The notes under the pieces were generated by a model. The model was not told the DNA's origin. It made no database searches and saw nothing but the letters and a program-made list of their open reading frames with translations. A DNA stretch of 38,053 nt from an uncultured Planctomycetaceae bacterium. Its GTDB lineage: Bacteria; Planctomycetota; Planctomycetia; Gemmatales; Gemmataceae. This document shows positions 1-6,701 of this stretch, one piece after another; position 1 is the stretch's first letter, and each line of letters opens with the position of its first letter. A program made the position numbers and the translations under genes. The stretch lies in contig CAIWHS010000046.1 in the NCBI GenBank assembly GCA_903912515.1, positions 1 through 38,053 on the forward strand, given 5' to 3'.

Positions 1-198
1 ACTCACTTGGGCTTATCTTCAAAGGATGTTTTATCTGGTGCAAACTGGCTAACAACCCGATATTTTGCCGAATGGAATGCCCAAAATCTCACCACCACAC
101 AGGCTGGAATAAACCTTGCTAAATTAGTGGTTGAAGACGCGGAAATTGGCCATTTCAATCAGCTTTTCCAAACTCAACGCCCAGCATCGCTCATGTAA
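1..198 (+). CDS. Possible 3' end of an upstream plus-strand gene (partial, product unknown)
   Basis: The frame THLGLSSKDVLSGANWLTTRYFAEWNAQNLTTTQAGINLAKLVVEDAEIGHF... is open from the window edge to TAA at 196-198. Composition is protein-like. It overlaps the convergent toroid gene end by 25 nt. Confidence 0.35.
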   Translation, partial: THLGLSSKDVLSGANWLTTRYFAEWNAQNLTTTQAGINLAKLVVEDAEIGHFNQLFQTQRPASLM

Positions 199-1739
199 AG
201 TGGCAGGTGCCTGTAATAAACTTCCAAGGTCAAAAGGGCCAAGGAAGTCGTCATCAACCTGCCCCCTTCCTTCACTCCATGAGAATTGCCTTCCGGATTC
301 CAGCTTCCAGCCATACCGACTGGAGCACCTTTTGCCGACTTGGGCCCGCCAACCTGTTTATCAATCAGATAATCGCGAATCCCGCCACGCCCGTTGCGAT
401 TTGGGCCAAGGTTCCAAATATCCCAGCATTCATCCTGCTGCCCCATATGATGCATGGCTTGCGTTGCATAATATAGGTAGTAAATGTCACTATTTTTCGA
501 TGGTGAATTTTCAATGATTATCTTGGCCCCCTTCCGCAAGGCCTCATTATTTGGGCGTGTCCCAAGGTAAAGCCGGCATAACATTCCCGCTGCTGTCATC
601 GCAGGAGAGGTACCCTTGCCATCCTGATAACCGTAGCCCCCGTTTGCTTTGTCTAAACATTGGTCCAAAAAATGCTCAACCAGCTTATATCGCTCCGCTG
701 GCACACGTACGCCGGCCATTTGTGCGCTTTTCAGGGCCATGAACATCCAACCTGTGACTGACATATCCCCTTCTTGCTTGGGGGTGTACCGCCAGCCTCC
801 ACCTTTGGGATCCTGAAATTCGATCACATAAGATATGGCCCTTTGGGCTGAAGCTCTCAATTGGGGGTCACCGGTTAAACCGCAAGCCTCGCAAACCGCA
901 ATGGTTGCCAATGAATGAGCGTAGGCGTTCTCGTTGAACGCCCCAGACCGCTTATTCTGGTTCAGCATCAGAAAATTCAGCGCACGCTGCACCACAGCCG
1001 AGTGGTCCACCCGGGCCTTGCGGCCCCCGTCCATGGCCTCCTCAACCTTCTCGCTATTGGGTCGATGGGTTATTCCTGCTGCCAAAAACGGCAATACACC
1101 CAGTGCCGCGCCTGCCACATCGTTTTTAGTATTTCCCTGTAACTTGTCTATCGACCAAGAGCCATCCTTGTTCTGCGTGCCAGCAAGCCAACGCAACCCT
1201 CGCGCTACAGCGGCCTCGGATACCTCGCTGCCGCCCCCTTGGGTTAACGCCACCTTCTTGCCACCGCCAGATCGACCAACAATCCCCCCCGCGCTTTGAA
1301 CTCCTCCCAACCCGGCGGATTTGTCCGCCCCCAAGGCGTTACCGATGTCGCCCATCGCCTCAGGGCCCTGAAAAACCCCGGCCTCTAAGCCGGGCGGCGG
1401 CGGAATTGATGCATCATTCAATACCGTGGGAGCTTCATTCATTGTCCCTGTTGGTTCATTTTCCTTCAACGGGGCTACAACATCGTCCTTCATTTCCTCA
1501 GGCATGGGGTCCATGCCACCGATTTCTTTATCAGGATCGCCTACATCCTCAAAAAAGTCTGTCTTTTTTTCTTCAATTTTTTGGGCCACAGTCGCCTCAA
1601 GCCCAAGGTTCCCTACTTGATCCTCAGGAATGGGGCTGGGAACCAGGATTAAAATTGACAACAAAAACCCATGCATAACCAAGCTAACGCACCCGGCAAT
1701 TGCGGCTGGAAGGTAATGGTTTTGCATGTTAGGTGTCAC
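174..1739 (-). CDS. N-terminally anchored prenyltransferase/squalene-oxidase-repeat (alpha/alpha toroid) protein with TonB-like TM segment
   Basis: 521 aa. Start is GTG at 1739 or ATG at 1727. N-terminal TM AAIAGCVSLVMHGFLLSILILVP, acidic/proline-containing linker, then repeats such as GLRWLAGTQNKDGSWSIDK, ALNFLMLNQNKRSGAFNE, AISYVIEFQDPKGGGWRYTP and CLDKANGGYGYQDGKGTSPAMTAAG. Confidence 0.85.
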   Translation of the reverse strand: MTPNMQNHYLPAAIAGCVSLVMHGFLLSILILVPSPIPEDQVGNLGLEATVAQKIEEKKTDFFEDVGDPDKEIGGMDPMPEEMKDDVVAPLKENEPTGTMNEAPTVLNDASIPPPPGLEAGVFQGPEAMGDIGNALGADKSAGLGGVQSAGGIVGRSGGGKKVALTQGGGSEVSEAAVARGLRWLAGTQNKDGSWSIDKLQGNTKNDVAGAALGVLPFLAAGITHRPNSEKVEEAMDGGRKARVDHSAVVQRALNFLMLNQNKRSGAFNENAYAHSLATIAVCEACGLTGDPQLRASAQRAISYVIEFQDPKGGGWRYTPKQEGDMSVTGWMFMALKSAQMAGVRVPAERYKLVEHFLDQCLDKANGGYGYQDGKGTSPAMTAAGMLCRLYLGTRPNNEALRKGAKIIIENSPSKNSDIYYLYYATQAMHHMGQQDECWDIWNLGPNRNGRGGIRDYLIDKQVGGPKSAKGAPVGMAGSWNPEGNSHGVKEGGRLMTTSLALLTLEVYYRHLPLYMSDAGR

Positions 1740-1850
1740 CCAATTTGCTCGGTTTCAACCTTCTGACATTTAGGACACAGCTCGGGGAAGCTGTTGTTTA
1801 ATTCTAACCTCAATTCATTCAGCAGGAAAACGATGTTCCTTTTCCCCATG
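1736..1850 (-). CDS. Possible CPxC microprotein between the membrane protein and the toroid gene
   Basis: ATG at 1850 gives MGKRNIVFLLNELRLELNNSFPELCPKCQKVETEQIG. It overlaps the end of the upstream gene, and its TGA overlaps the GTG start of the toroid gene (GTGA). Confidence 0.3.
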
Positions 1851-3002
1851 ATTAAAACCCTTGCCAGTTCGGCCCGAAATGGCCTTAAAATCCTGCAAAT
1901 CGCCGTCCAAGTTCCCCAAATCAGTCCCTTCAAACCGGTGCTGTCTTCTTACTTTTTCCAGCCGTGCGCGCACGCGCTTGTCGCTCGAACCCATCCACCA
2001 AGTCATTCCCCAAACCAAAGCCAAAGCCAAGGCAAAACATCCTAAAATAATTGACAGCAAATCCCGTGGCCAAGTCCCCATATCAGCCAATGGCTTGGGA
2101 GGCTCAACTAGCCCCACCAATTCAGGACCAACCAAAAGGGGGCATTCCCTCTCCACCGGTTTACCCCCAACAGTTTTTGCCGCCTGGTACCGATAGGCTT
2201 TCAGAAAATACCCGGAAAAACGAACAGGGCGCTGCAAATTCTCCGCAGGTGCCAAATTTCCCCCCAATCTGGCCGTGATAACACAAACAGGGTTGGCACC
2301 GTAAAGGTCCTGAAAAACCCAAGATTCATAAAGCTCTCCAACCCCTTGCTTCACGGCTTCTGGCAAAGGCTCCAGCTTGCGAATACGCCGAACAACTCCT
2401 TCCCCACGCACAACCTGCCCTCGCAATCGGGCCGGACGGTTCATCAGGTCCCCGCGATGCATGTTTGTGTTGGCACCTCCAGCTTGCCAAAAGGCATCAA
2501 AATCAACGCGCCCTGCTTGAACAACCGCCTGCAAATAGGCACCGTAATCCGCTTCTCCAATTGGCTCCCGGTCGCGCACTTGGTCCAGTAAAAAATCACC
2601 TAACGGCATAACCCGCCCAGGATCAACAATCTGATACACCCCATATTGGTGGCCCAAATCCAAAAAACTGAGACAAGACAATAACGCTCCGTCGCCAATC
2701 GCCACTTGGGCTGCCGCTTGACCATGAACTGAGCCCAATAATATAGGCGAAACCAAACCGGGCGGGGCTTGAAGGTGCCAAACTGAAAAACCGTTTTCCC
2801 CACCCGAGGCTAATAAATTTAGTGAGCCAATTGCCCCAATCCGCCCTTCCCCAAAAGGGGCGGCAAGCAACAAGCTGGCCAGATGGCAAGGCTCGGGCCG
2901 AACCAGCCCTTCCTGCACACGGGCAACTGGATTTGCAAACACAAAGAATGGCAAAAGGAGAATAAAAAACAAGAACAGGCCCTGTTTGACGGCTTTCGCC
3001 AT
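1815..3002 (-). CDS. Hypothetical membrane-anchored protein (signal/TM at N-terminus, TM near C-terminus) of the Exb gene string
   Basis: ORF with likely start MAKAVKQGLFLFFILLLPFFVFANPVARVQEG at 3002, 1 nt after the upstream ExbD stop. C-terminal TM DLLSIILGCFALALALVWGMTWWMG. Confidence 0.75.
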   Translation of the reverse strand: MAKAVKQGLFLFFILLLPFFVFANPVARVQEGLVRPEPCHLASLLLAAPFGEGRIGAIGSLNLLASGGENGFSVWHLQAPPGLVSPILLGSVHGQAAAQVAIGDGALLSCLSFLDLGHQYGVYQIVDPGRVMPLGDFLLDQVRDREPIGEADYGAYLQAVVQAGRVDFDAFWQAGGANTNMHRGDLMNRPARLRGQVVRGEGVVRRIRKLEPLPEAVKQGVGELYESWVFQDLYGANPVCVITARLGGNLAPAENLQRPVRFSGYFLKAYRYQAAKTVGGKPVERECPLLVGPELVGLVEPPKPLADMGTWPRDLLSIILGCFALALALVWGMTWWMGSSDKRVRARLEKVRRQHRFEGTDLGNLDGDLQDFKAISGRTGKGFNHGEKEHRFPAE

Positions 3003-3003
3003 T

Positions 3004-3897
3004 TCACCGCCCTGCCTGATCAATTGGTTTTTGAAGGGCAATAACTGCTTTGCTAGGATCATCCGCTACCCGGTGGGCAGTAGCCCGGCAGGCATCAATG
3101 ACCAAAACCACCATCTCCCACTTGATTCCCGATGATGCCTGTAGCTTAATATTGATCCCCGCCCGACTTTTCGCTGCAGTTTTATCGTCACCAAAATGTG
3201 CCAAGAATGGGAGATTTAATTTGGCAACTAATTCCCTGTTAATCAAGTCACCCACTTTGGCATGATTACGCAAGTCCTCTTCAGGAATCACCAAGCTATC
3301 CCCTGCGCCTGAACCACTAATTTCTACCCGGCGAAGGTCACCATCCTCATTCGAGCGCAAAACCAAAGTTAAATTGGCTTCAAACTTGGGCGGGGTATCA
3401 CCTGCAGGAGGTGGCTCCTTACTTTGAGTGGCCGTTTGCTTATCGTCGGTTGGTGGCAAACTGAACGGGATCTCTGTCTCTTCGCCAGATGGAGACCGAA
3501 ATGTCATGATGAAAAAAAACAACAGTTGAAAAGTCATATCAAGCATAGGCGTGATCGGGATCACCGGATCGGGTAAGGAAGGTATCACCGCCCGGTGCTT
3601 CCTTTTTGCAAAATGGCCGTCACCAGCGAAATTGGTCCAGTCATTTTTGTTGGAAATACCACCCGCCGCAGCTTCCACAGGCACCGCAACCGAACCGGAA
3701 GAAACCTGCGCTGCAGGAGTTGCAACTGCCGCCACTACTTGGTTTTGCGGTGTTTCTCCCAAAGATTCAATCGTCAAAATTTCCAAACCACGTTGCTCTG
3801 CCAAGGCCCGAACTGCATCAGGGGAGTCGCCATCTAGAAAGCCCTCGATGGTGCGTCCCGAACGCGGATCAACTGCGGTGATCTTGAACCTTTCCAT
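3004..3897 (-). CDS. ExbD/TolR family protein with GspF-like N-terminal domain
   Basis: 297 aa. N-terminus MERFKITAVDPRSGRTIEGFLDGDSPDAVRALAEQRGLEILTIES. ExbD core VIPITPMLDMTFQLLFFFIMTFRSPSGEETEIPFSLP. Confidence 0.9.
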   Translation of the reverse strand: MERFKITAVDPRSGRTIEGFLDGDSPDAVRALAEQRGLEILTIESLGETPQNQVVAAVATPAAQVSSGSVAVPVEAAAGGISNKNDWTNFAGDGHFAKRKHRAVIPSLPDPVIPITPMLDMTFQLLFFFIMTFRSPSGEETEIPFSLPPTDDKQTATQSKEPPPAGDTPPKFEANLTLVLRSNEDGDLRRVEISGSGAGDSLVIPEEDLRNHAKVGDLINRELVAKLNLPFLAHFGDDKTAAKSRAGINIKLQASSGIKWEMVVLVIDACRATAHRVADDPSKAVIALQKPIDQAGR

Positions 3898-3942
3898 CTA
3901 CCGTTTCCCCGGCCTAAAGACCTTGAGCTGATTCAATCGCAA

Positions 3943-4623
3943 CTAGCGAGCAGCAGGTAACATCACGCCGTAATAAAGGTTAGTGAACTGGTTGCGTCTG
4001 CAAACTTCTGCCATTTGATGAACATCTTGGTATTCCACATCCTTGTCCGCCCTAATTCTTACCCGGCGCTCCACCTTCTGCCCCTTGGCATCTTTGGGTA
4101 AATCCTGCTGGGTCACCCGCAACCAATTCCCCACATCGACAAACCGATCCGGGTTAGGCCTTCTGCCTACCCCCTTGCGCAAGGTCATGGGATTAGGCTC
4201 GGTCAAAGTGACTACCATCGATTCGCCAGGTTTAAAATTGGCATCGGCCAACATCACTTGGCTACCGTCCTCCTTGAAAAGATTAAACAACCTCTCCGCG
4301 CGAAAATACCTTCCATCACCCAAAGTGGCTCGCAGCTCGCCCAATTCCTTTTCAGTTTTTTTCACCCATCGCCCACCGCTTTGGCTGAAAAACTGCTTCA
4401 CCGTACCGTCCCAGCCAATCAGGTTCAGAACAATCGGTTGGTCTGCGGTTTTGGAAGCGGGACGGGCCTCTTGGTTGACCGGAACCTGAATCTCCTGCTT
4501 GACCTGATCGGTGACAAAACGCACACAGATGATGAAAAACATGAGTAATTGCATCACCAAATCAAGTAACGGAGTCAGGTTGGGTTCTGCCACATCATTG
4601 CCACCACCCGAACCGGCGCTCAT
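3943..4623 (-). CDS. ExbD/TolR family protein
   Basis: MSAGSGGGNDVAEPNLTPLLDLVMQLLMFFIICVRFVTDQVKQEIQVP. GGAGAG ribosome-binding site upstream of ATG at 4623. Confidence 0.9.
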   Translation of the reverse strand: MSAGSGGGNDVAEPNLTPLLDLVMQLLMFFIICVRFVTDQVKQEIQVPVNQEARPASKTADQPIVLNLIGWDGTVKQFFSQSGGRWVKKTEKELGELRATLGDGRYFRAERLFNLFKEDGSQVMLADANFKPGESMVVTLTEPNPMTLRKGVGRRPNPDRFVDVGNWLRVTQQDLPKDAKGQKVERRVRIRADKDVEYQDVHQMAEVCRRNQFTNLYYGVMLPAAR

Positions 4624-4642
4624 GGCGATCTCTCCGGAAAAG

Positions 4643-5521
4643 TTAGCGGCCACTCGGGGGAATTTGACCGGAAACACCAGAAGCAGGCGTTGTGCCAGAT
4701 GCTTTGCGCATGGCGCTATATACTTGGGTAAGCAGGTCCATAGCCGTGTTGTTAACCTCCACCGTCAATTGGATCAATCGCTTGCTAAAAAAAGTGAAAA
4801 AGAAAATGGCTGGAACCGCCACGCCCACACCCATGAGTGTCACTACCAAGGCATGGGAAATATCACCCGCCAAAGACTTCGTGTCGACATTTCCAGAACT
4901 AGTACCCAATTTTTGAAAGCTATTGATCATCCCATAAACGGTACCGACAAGTCCTAAAAGCGGGCCCAACTGCCCTATAACTGCCATGAAAGAAATGATC
5001 AATTCTTTGCCAGCCCTGAACTCCTCAACTTTTCGGCTCATCGCCTCCGATGCTTCATCCAGTCCGTACTGCAATTTTGGCAAACCAGCCGATAGCGCCC
5101 TGGCCAAAAGGGATGGATTCTCAGCCAAAAGGGCCTGCGCTTGGCTAAACTGCCGCGCATTTACCTGCTTGGAAAACTCCTCAACCAATTCGGCCGGAGT
5201 CGCCGCGCTAAGTCGCAACTCCATTAAAAGAAATACCGACAAAGCCACCATGCTGATGGAAATCACCCCCATCAACAAACTCCAACCCACCCCAGCCGAT
5301 TCAAAGGCGTGAGCTATGAAACTCTTCGAAGATTTGTCGCCCCCATCTGCGGGAGCGGATATTTCGGGTGTGCTGGCATCCTGAGCATGCACCTGGCTCA
5401 CCAGAGGATCAACGGTCAAAAGGGCCAGAATGGCTAAGAGCGGACAAAAAACAAAAAGCCTAACAAATTTCCCGCTAAAAAAACTCCATCCGCCCTTCTG
5501 TTCGCAGGATAGCATCATCAT
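4643..5521 (-). CDS. MotA/TolQ/ExbB proton channel family protein
   Basis: 292 aa. N-terminal signal/TM segment, then GVISISMVALSVFLLMELRL ... FMAVIGQLGPLLGLVGTVYGMINSFQKLG ... ISHALVVTLMGVGVAVPAIFFFTFF. Confidence 0.93.
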   Translation of the reverse strand: MMMLSCEQKGGWSFFSGKFVRLFVFCPLLAILALLTVDPLVSQVHAQDASTPEISAPADGGDKSSKSFIAHAFESAGVGWSLLMGVISISMVALSVFLLMELRLSAATPAELVEEFSKQVNARQFSQAQALLAENPSLLARALSAGLPKLQYGLDEASEAMSRKVEEFRAGKELIISFMAVIGQLGPLLGLVGTVYGMINSFQKLGTSSGNVDTKSLAGDISHALVVTLMGVGVAVPAIFFFTFFSKRLIQLTVEVNNTAMDLLTQVYSAMRKASGTTPASGVSGQIPPSGR

Positions 5522-5762
5522 CCCCGGCCCTCAATTTGGTTGACCTGCATCCACGTGGGACCATGCTGCCAACAAGTTTGGCAACCAAGCATGCCATGGG
5601 ACCAAATTCCAGAGACCGGCTTTCCCAAAAGGAAACCGCATCTCAAAAAATTATAGGGTCGAATGCGAATTCAACCTATTCTGGGGCTCGAGTCAAGCGA
5701 CATGGTTCAAAAACTGCCAAAGCAGCAAAAGTGGGGTAACCGAGCCAAGAAAAGAAATTCCC

Positions 5763-6701
5763 CTAAACGCAGGCCAGCCGCTTGCGGAAATGCTCCAAAG
5801 TCCTTGCCAAACCGTCTCGCCTTGAAACTTTGGGCTCCCATCCCAAAATCTGACGGGCACGCGTTATGTCTGGTTGGCGAATCTTGGGGTCATCTTGGGG
5901 TAGTGGCTTGAAATCAAGCTTGCTTTTCGACCCGGACAGCTCCAATATTTCCTCAGCAAATTGCAAAATGGTGATCTCGGAAGGGTTACCGATATTCACC
6001 GGGAAAGGCGTGTCAGATTCCATCAAACGCACAATTCCGTCCACCAAATCTGAAACATGGCAGAAACTTCTGGTTTGTTTCCCGTCTCCATAAATGGTTA
6101 ATGGGTCGCCCCGCAGTGCCTGCCCCATGAAATTAGGCAACACCCGCCCATCATCAAGTCGCATTCGGTCGCCATAAGTATTGAAAATCCGAACAATACG
6201 AGTTTCCATGCCGTGGTGACGGTGATAGGCCATCACCATCGCCTCTGCAAAACGCTTGGCCTCATCGTAAACCCCGCGAACCCCGATGGGGTTCACATTG
6301 CCCCAATAGTCTTCTCGTTGCGGATGGATTTCCGGGTCCCCATAAACTTCCGAGGTACTCGCAAGCAAGAAACGAGCTCCTTTGGCCCTGGCCAAACCAA
6401 GCATATTGTGGGTGCCAAGCGATCCAACCTTCAAAGTTTGAATGGGTAGTAGAAGGTAATCCACAGGGCTGGCTGGTGATGCAAAATGTAGAATGCGATC
6501 TATTTTTTCATCCAAGAAAAGCGGCGTTGAAACATCGTGTTCGATAAACCGAAAGTCTGTTCGCCCCACCAAATGTTCGATATTGTCCTTTTGGCCAGTT
6601 ATGAAGTTGTCGACAGCCAAAACCCGATTGCCTTCTGCCAAATAGCGATCACACAGGTGTGATCCAACAAAACCTGCGCCACCAGATATAAGAATATTCA
6701 T
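5763..6701 (-). CDS. UDP-glucuronate decarboxylase-like SDR (NAD-dependent sugar epimerase/dehydratase family)
   Basis: [44 protein letters not shown] ... [44 protein letters not shown]. Confidence 0.92.

Follow-up and report, generated by a model that had tools for sequence, protein, structure and literature searches.

An operon at the start of contig CAIWHS010000046.1 (C46), a whole contig of 38,053 nucleotides from the draft genome of an uncultured Planctomycetaceae bacterium (GCA_903912515.1; hereafter the window), probably encodes an ion-driven trans-envelope machine, in which a membrane-anchored alpha/alpha-toroid protein acts as a transducer driven by the proton motive force (pmf) and carries the toroid as its head. 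We give this reading a probability of about 75%. The operon consists of five minus-strand open reading frames (ORFs) arranged head to tail at 5521-174, encoding ExbB, two ExbDs, a membrane protein (MP) and the toroid protein. The first-pass annotation had described these five packed genes, and all of them are complete, including the toroid gene, because its stop at 174 lies inside the contig. It had also put the toroid protein in the place of TonB or TolA, and this placement is supported by the conserved gene order, by the lack of a TonB_C protein in the genome and by a Ser-x3-His pair in the toroid membrane helix, the last of which is the strongest evidence and was absent from that annotation.

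The transmembrane (TM) helix of the toroid protein reads S19-LVM-H23 with L30 in the Leu position, which is the Ser-x3-His motor-docking motif of TonB and TolA. In cryo-electron microscopy structures of the Ton and Tol systems, the Ser-His pair touches TM1 of ExbB or TolQ (PMC12215075). Among 29 aligned homologues sharing 34-61% identity with the window protein, the Ser was invariant and the +4 position was always occupied by His or Asn. The motif was found in 115 of 127 anchored homologues in a first survey using an automatic search interval, by which at least one further case (SFFMH in L047) was overlooked, and in 161 of 178 distinct homologues in an enlarged set (144 His, 17 Asn); as a control, the same pattern occurred in 33 of the 1215 other membrane helices of the same loci (2.7%). 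The natural Asn variants are informative, because a TonB with Asn instead of His20 is reportedly fully functional in E. coli, according to the title of Swayne and Postle 2011 as listed in PMC8928145. Leu at +11, matching the L of SHLS, was present in 67 of 107 motif-bearing sequences, with P-A-W ahead of it; since the column statistics were conditioned on the motif, only this Leu and the preceding P-A-W are independent.

The layout of one N-terminal TM, a linker and a toroid, as first annotated, is borne out by an AlphaFold2 model (profile-fed, 40 sequences, predicted template modelling score 0.71), in which a confidently predicted helix and a confidently predicted toroid are separated by a low-confidence stretch (residue ranges and predicted local distance difference test (pLDDT) values are given in Table 1). 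The disordered linker is about 114 residues long in the window protein, and 114 residues is also the median of the homologues. A TM helix followed by a disordered linker and a globular head is the plan of TonB and TolA, and the head is presumed to be periplasmic. Some toroid members showed a hydrophobic stretch about 24-32 residues past the motif His, and no D-box or motor-box strand was seen in the AlphaFold2 model.

The best Foldseek matches of the toroid in the PDB were squalene-hopene-type cyclases, other class II cyclases, GH76 proteins and prenyltransferase barrels (E 4e-5 to 1e-3), and Pfam SQHop_cyclase_C matched the protein at 1.9e-7, above its cut-off. The alpha/alpha-toroid fold usually holds its active site at the N-terminal ends of the inner helices, and the conserved polar residues D325, S327, Y371, Y420, Y423 and Y424 were located at or near these ends of the predicted inner helices, which suggests a binding or catalytic pocket. 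On the one hand, the toroid could be a membrane-anchored periplasmic enzyme for terpenoids, polysaccharides or glycans that works with no motor, its co-location with exb genes reflecting a shared envelope regulon: cyclases, GH76 mannanases, epimerases and prenyltransferases all share the fold, the polar residues lie at or near its usual active-site end, Pec_lyase matched 23 of 40 toroid members, and most toroid copies lie away from exb genes. On the other hand, a plain anchor would leave the roughly 90% retention of Ser-x3-His/Asn in the TM helix unexplained, linkage to ExbB/ExbD or ExbD is seen in three clades of the toroid tree, and the DxDD acid motif, absent from the window toroid, was present at any position in only 15 of 181 toroids, so that we regard this alternative as quite improbable. 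The CGEQ thioester signature was found in none of the 181 toroids. The lack of a consistent DxDD and of any CGEQ speaks against a class II cyclase or a complement-type function; a class II terpene cyclase was rejected on the former, and a complement-like protease inhibitor on the latter, though TED_complement weakly matched three of 40 members, and the protease-inhibitor-like role initially suggested for the toroid is therefore not retained. An intermediate case is a force transducer with an enzymatic head, in which the motor would move a catalyst through the cell wall. This is a sub-case of the transducer reading and overlaps with it in probability; it would combine the evidence for a transducer with the conserved putative pocket, but no catalytic motif could be assigned from the sequence, and it appears unlikely.

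The order ExbB-ExbD-ExbD-MP-toroid was repeated in relatives from many genera, and gene order is thus conserved among relatives. Upstream of 180 distinct toroid genes, ExbB, ExbD and MP were found together in 21 cases, ExbB with or without ExbD and lacking MP in seven, ExbD without ExbB in eight (contig-edge cases such as L042 included), MP only in nine and none of these in 135. The fetched loci were skewed towards the relatives of the window, so these fractions are not phylum-wide estimates, and the neighbourhood profiles were built for this analysis and may miss divergent exb genes. The fixed gene string expected from the first-pass annotation holds in the family of the window, but not across the phylum, where exb genes are absent from the surroundings of most toroid genes. 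When mapped on the toroid tree, linkage states required 12 changes, compared with 33 after shuffling (minimum 28), and linked toroids were placed in three regions of it: the five-gene set of Gemmatales, giant toroids of about 1100-1250 amino acids (aa) with ExbB-ExbD, and toroids of about 750 aa with ExbD, the latter two groupings having modest support (0.63 and 0.74, respectively). The giant toroids of L115, L120, L135, L157 and L172 (1066-1219 aa) adjoin ExbB and mostly also ExbD, and those examined have three N-terminal TMs, the third usually with Ser-x3-His (SLLLH, SLVVH). Separately, tandem arrays of two to three toroid genes, most of them with the docking motif and with no exb gene nearby, were observed in L198, L163, L184 and L187.

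A profile search of the window genome identified no TonB_C, plug domain or TolB_N. In the 57 genomes around it, TonB_C was found in 10 and a receptor plug domain in 21, and TolB_N was found in none. This scarcity of TonB_C agrees with Speth et al. 2012, who detected TonB and TonB-dependent receptors in no more than four of their planctomycete genomes, the Gemmata obscuriglobus genome not being among the four (PMC3422733). It is very improbable that the toroid gene is a passenger and that a separate TonB or TolA, encoded at a distance, is the partner of the exb genes; a neighbourhood by itself is no proof of interaction, but TonB_C and TolB_N are missing from the window genome and from 47 and all 57 of the relatives, respectively, the toroid itself bears the docking motif, and the gene order is conserved across genera.

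The putative motor genes are consistent with an energised complex. The window ExbB could be aligned to solved TolQ and ExbB structures in the HMMER register, and column conservation showed its pore threonines T194 and T228 to be kept in 27 of 28 ExbBs, with T194, T228 and Pro237 each kept in 25-27 of the 28 homologues. TM1 Ser88 was near invariant among toroid-linked ExbBs, and a Gly takes this place in the ExbB linked to a von Willebrand factor A (vWA) protein in the same genome. Both window ExbDs retain the proton-binding TM Asp, and a P-x-x-D type motif was found in nearly all other ExbDs surveyed. By sequence, the window genes have the characters of a 5:2 ExbBD/TolQR motor, namely a MotA_ExbB protein with pore threonines and an ExbD/TolR TM Asp. 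One ExbB TM1 type (SLSW-F) is shared by the partners of three Asn-type toroids, which common descent could explain, the 28 ExbBs being too few for covariation statistics. ExbD2 starts with an N-terminal domain of about 50 residues weakly resembling the GspF N-terminus (NCBIfam GspF E=0.16). A similar-looking stretch precedes the toroid in a relative (L045), and this cytoplasmic domain is possibly a docking module shared by ExbD2 and the L045 toroid.

In the proposed machine, five copies of ExbB would make up the channel, and the two ExbDs would supply its rotor, perhaps by forming a heterodimer. The toroid protein, presumably with its N-terminus in the cytoplasm, would use Ser19/His23 of its one TM helix to dock against the outer face of ExbB, as TonB and TolA do; its disordered linker would bridge the periplasm, and the toroid, as the head, would bind or pull a target located at the peptidoglycan or the outer membrane, with MP as an accessory subunit. 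Several observations weigh against such a machine. The 135 of 180 distinct toroid genes that have no exb or MP gene nearby would need a motor encoded elsewhere, or none. The ExbB Trp38 of E. coli, which contacts TonB or TolA, is replaced by Leu in the window ExbB, so the contact between ExbB and the toroid protein cannot match the Ton/Tol contact in every detail, and the HMMER register sets the conserved Ser88 two residues off E. coli Ser34. The toroid TMs do not conserve the last Ser of SHLS, a position that is weakly conserved in TonB too (PMC12215075), and the 17 exceptions to the motif include signal-peptide or lipoprotein-like homologues. In L158, L105, L137 and L103, the toroid homologues lack the docking motif and begin with signal-peptide or lipobox-like sequences; such motif-less homologues are possible secreted or lipoprotein counterparts.

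Among known systems, the closest are the transducers of Williams-Jones et al. 2025, who proposed that a vWA head on an SHLS helix works with a TolQ and two TolR-like genes and who expected more such systems (PMC12204202). These transducers share with the window system a TM helix, a disordered linker, a head other than that of TonB, the SHLS motif and two different ExbD/TolR genes, and they likewise include planctomycetes and have no known phenotype; they differ in having a vWA head and a TPR-type partner gene, where the window system has a toroid head and MP. Contig C5 (L041) of the same genome encodes, at 2080-5884 on the minus strand, a vWA-domain-like single-TM protein together with a TPR-like protein, ExbB and two ExbDs; this cluster matches the vWA force-transducer system, and its TM has no obvious Ser-x3-His. 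An assignment of the window cluster to the known vWA system was rejected, given its alpha/alpha-toroid head and the separate vWA system on contig C5. The toroid system is a sibling of the vWA transducers, and the window genome holds both. With TonB-ExbB-ExbD of E. coli, the window system shares its ExbB/ExbD motor residues, an S-x3-H-x6-L pattern in the TM helix and a disordered linker, whereas it lacks TonB_C and a plug-type receptor in the genome and has two ExbDs, the extra MP and a head of about 350 residues. It resembles TolQ-TolR-TolA/Tol-Pal in motor type, the window ExbB scoring best against the TolQ model (67 bits, under its cut-off of 221), but it has no TolA head, and TolB_N is missing from the relatives. 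With squalene-hopene and related class II terpene cyclases and other alpha/alpha-toroid enzymes it shares the fold and QW-like repeats; unlike the class II terpene cyclases, the window toroid has no consistent DxDD and is anchored in the membrane through a linker and an SHLS-type TM. Toroids are not mentioned in the text of Williams-Jones et al. 2025 (PMC12204202), and no description of a link between a toroid and Exb proteins was found in the literature searched, which did not extend to subscription journals and preprints.

Table 1. Coordinates of the operon, its domains and the adjoining upstream gene in the window
Feature	Coordinates	Strand	Description
ExbB	4643..5521	(-)	292 aa; ExbB/TolQ-type motor subunit; Pfam MotA_ExbB 2.1e-24
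ExbD1	3943..4677	(-)	244 aa, likely start 4623; Pfam ExbD 2.3e-14; TM aspartate in LTPLLD
ExbD2	3004..3897	(-)	297 aa; Pfam ExbD 2.8e-7; TM aspartate in ITPMLD
MP	1815..3062	(-)	415 aa, likely start 3002; N-terminal TM or signal, periplasmic part, C-terminal TM
MP OB-like beta-barrel domain, residues 217-317	2112..2414	(-)	AlphaFold2 model and PDB fold search
Toroid protein	174..1739	(-)	521 aa, likely start 1727; TM helix, disordered linker, alpha/alpha-toroid
Toroid TM helix, residues 6-32	1644..1724	(-)	TonB/TolA-type motif S19-x3-H23-x6-L30; pLDDT ~93
Codons S19 to H23 (SLVMH)	1671..1685	(-)	Equivalent of TonB Ser16/His20 and TolA Ser18/His22 (PMC12215075)
Linker, residues 42-155	1275..1616	(-)	Disordered, acidic, Pro/Gly-containing; pLDDT <50 throughout
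Alpha/alpha-toroid domain, residues 158-510	210..1268	(-)	Presumed periplasmic head; pLDDT mostly >90
Sugar-nucleotide epimerase/decarboxylase-type gene	5763..6701	(-)	Directly upstream of exbB; Pfam

Judging from orthologue N-termini and junction geometry, the downstream starts of ExbD1, MP and the toroid protein (4623, 3002 and 1727) are probably the real ones, and with them the gene overlaps become tight, coupled junctions. MP has no Pfam family, and no Pfam family is common to its members. Its AlphaFold2 model shows strands at 217-317 and a helix at 333-375; of the two TMs originally annotated, the C-terminal one is confirmed as this helix, and the N-terminal one is a hydrophobic stretch that may instead be a signal peptide. 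A PDB fold search with MP placed OB-fold proteins on top, every E being >0.001, and gave no functional clue. Neighbour clustering found a homologue of the upstream epimerase/decarboxylase gene near the operon in 13 loci, an association that does not prove it a part of the system and that gives a possible link to envelope polysaccharide. The window extends only 173 bases past the toroid stop and ends before the next downstream gene. In several relatives (L090:9805-12078, L055:5585-7588), the product of the gene directly 3' of the toroid is secreted and rich in proline, carries HEAT-like repeats at its C-terminus and matches no Pfam family; it may be a partner that spans the periplasm. The remaining window, as far as scanned with Pfam, contained ordinary housekeeping genes.

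The toroid profile matched 219 of 248 genomes sampled across Planctomycetota. A scan of 85,462 species genomes returned at least 577 relatives, of which the best 80 all came from planctomycete-named genomes bar one labelled 'bacterium'; Gemmataceae metagenome-assembled genomes were the nearest named relatives among the matches listed. The envelope of Planctomycetota is Gram-negative, and our favoured guess for the target is a complex for uptake or anchoring at the outer membrane, standing in for TonB or Tol-Pal in this phylum. It is doubtful that TonB/TolA have been replaced mainly by toroid-headed transducers throughout Planctomycetota, with at least one of these transducers powering pmf-dependent import of whole macromolecules through the outer membrane. 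In Gemmata obscuriglobus, dextran is taken into the periplasm, and the protonophore carbonyl cyanide m-chlorophenyl hydrazone (CCCP) abolishes this uptake (0 of 816 cells versus 23% of 1,065; PMC5394234). We link the toroid system to this uptake as a hypothesis only, and any pmf-dependent step would give the same outcome with CCCP. The toroid family, found for the most part where TonB and TolB are missing from the genome, may be a route for energy across the planctomycete envelope, and a phylum-wide family with a TonB-type docking helix offers named genes and single residues (S19 and H23) with which the coupling of the pmf to the outer membrane could be tested.

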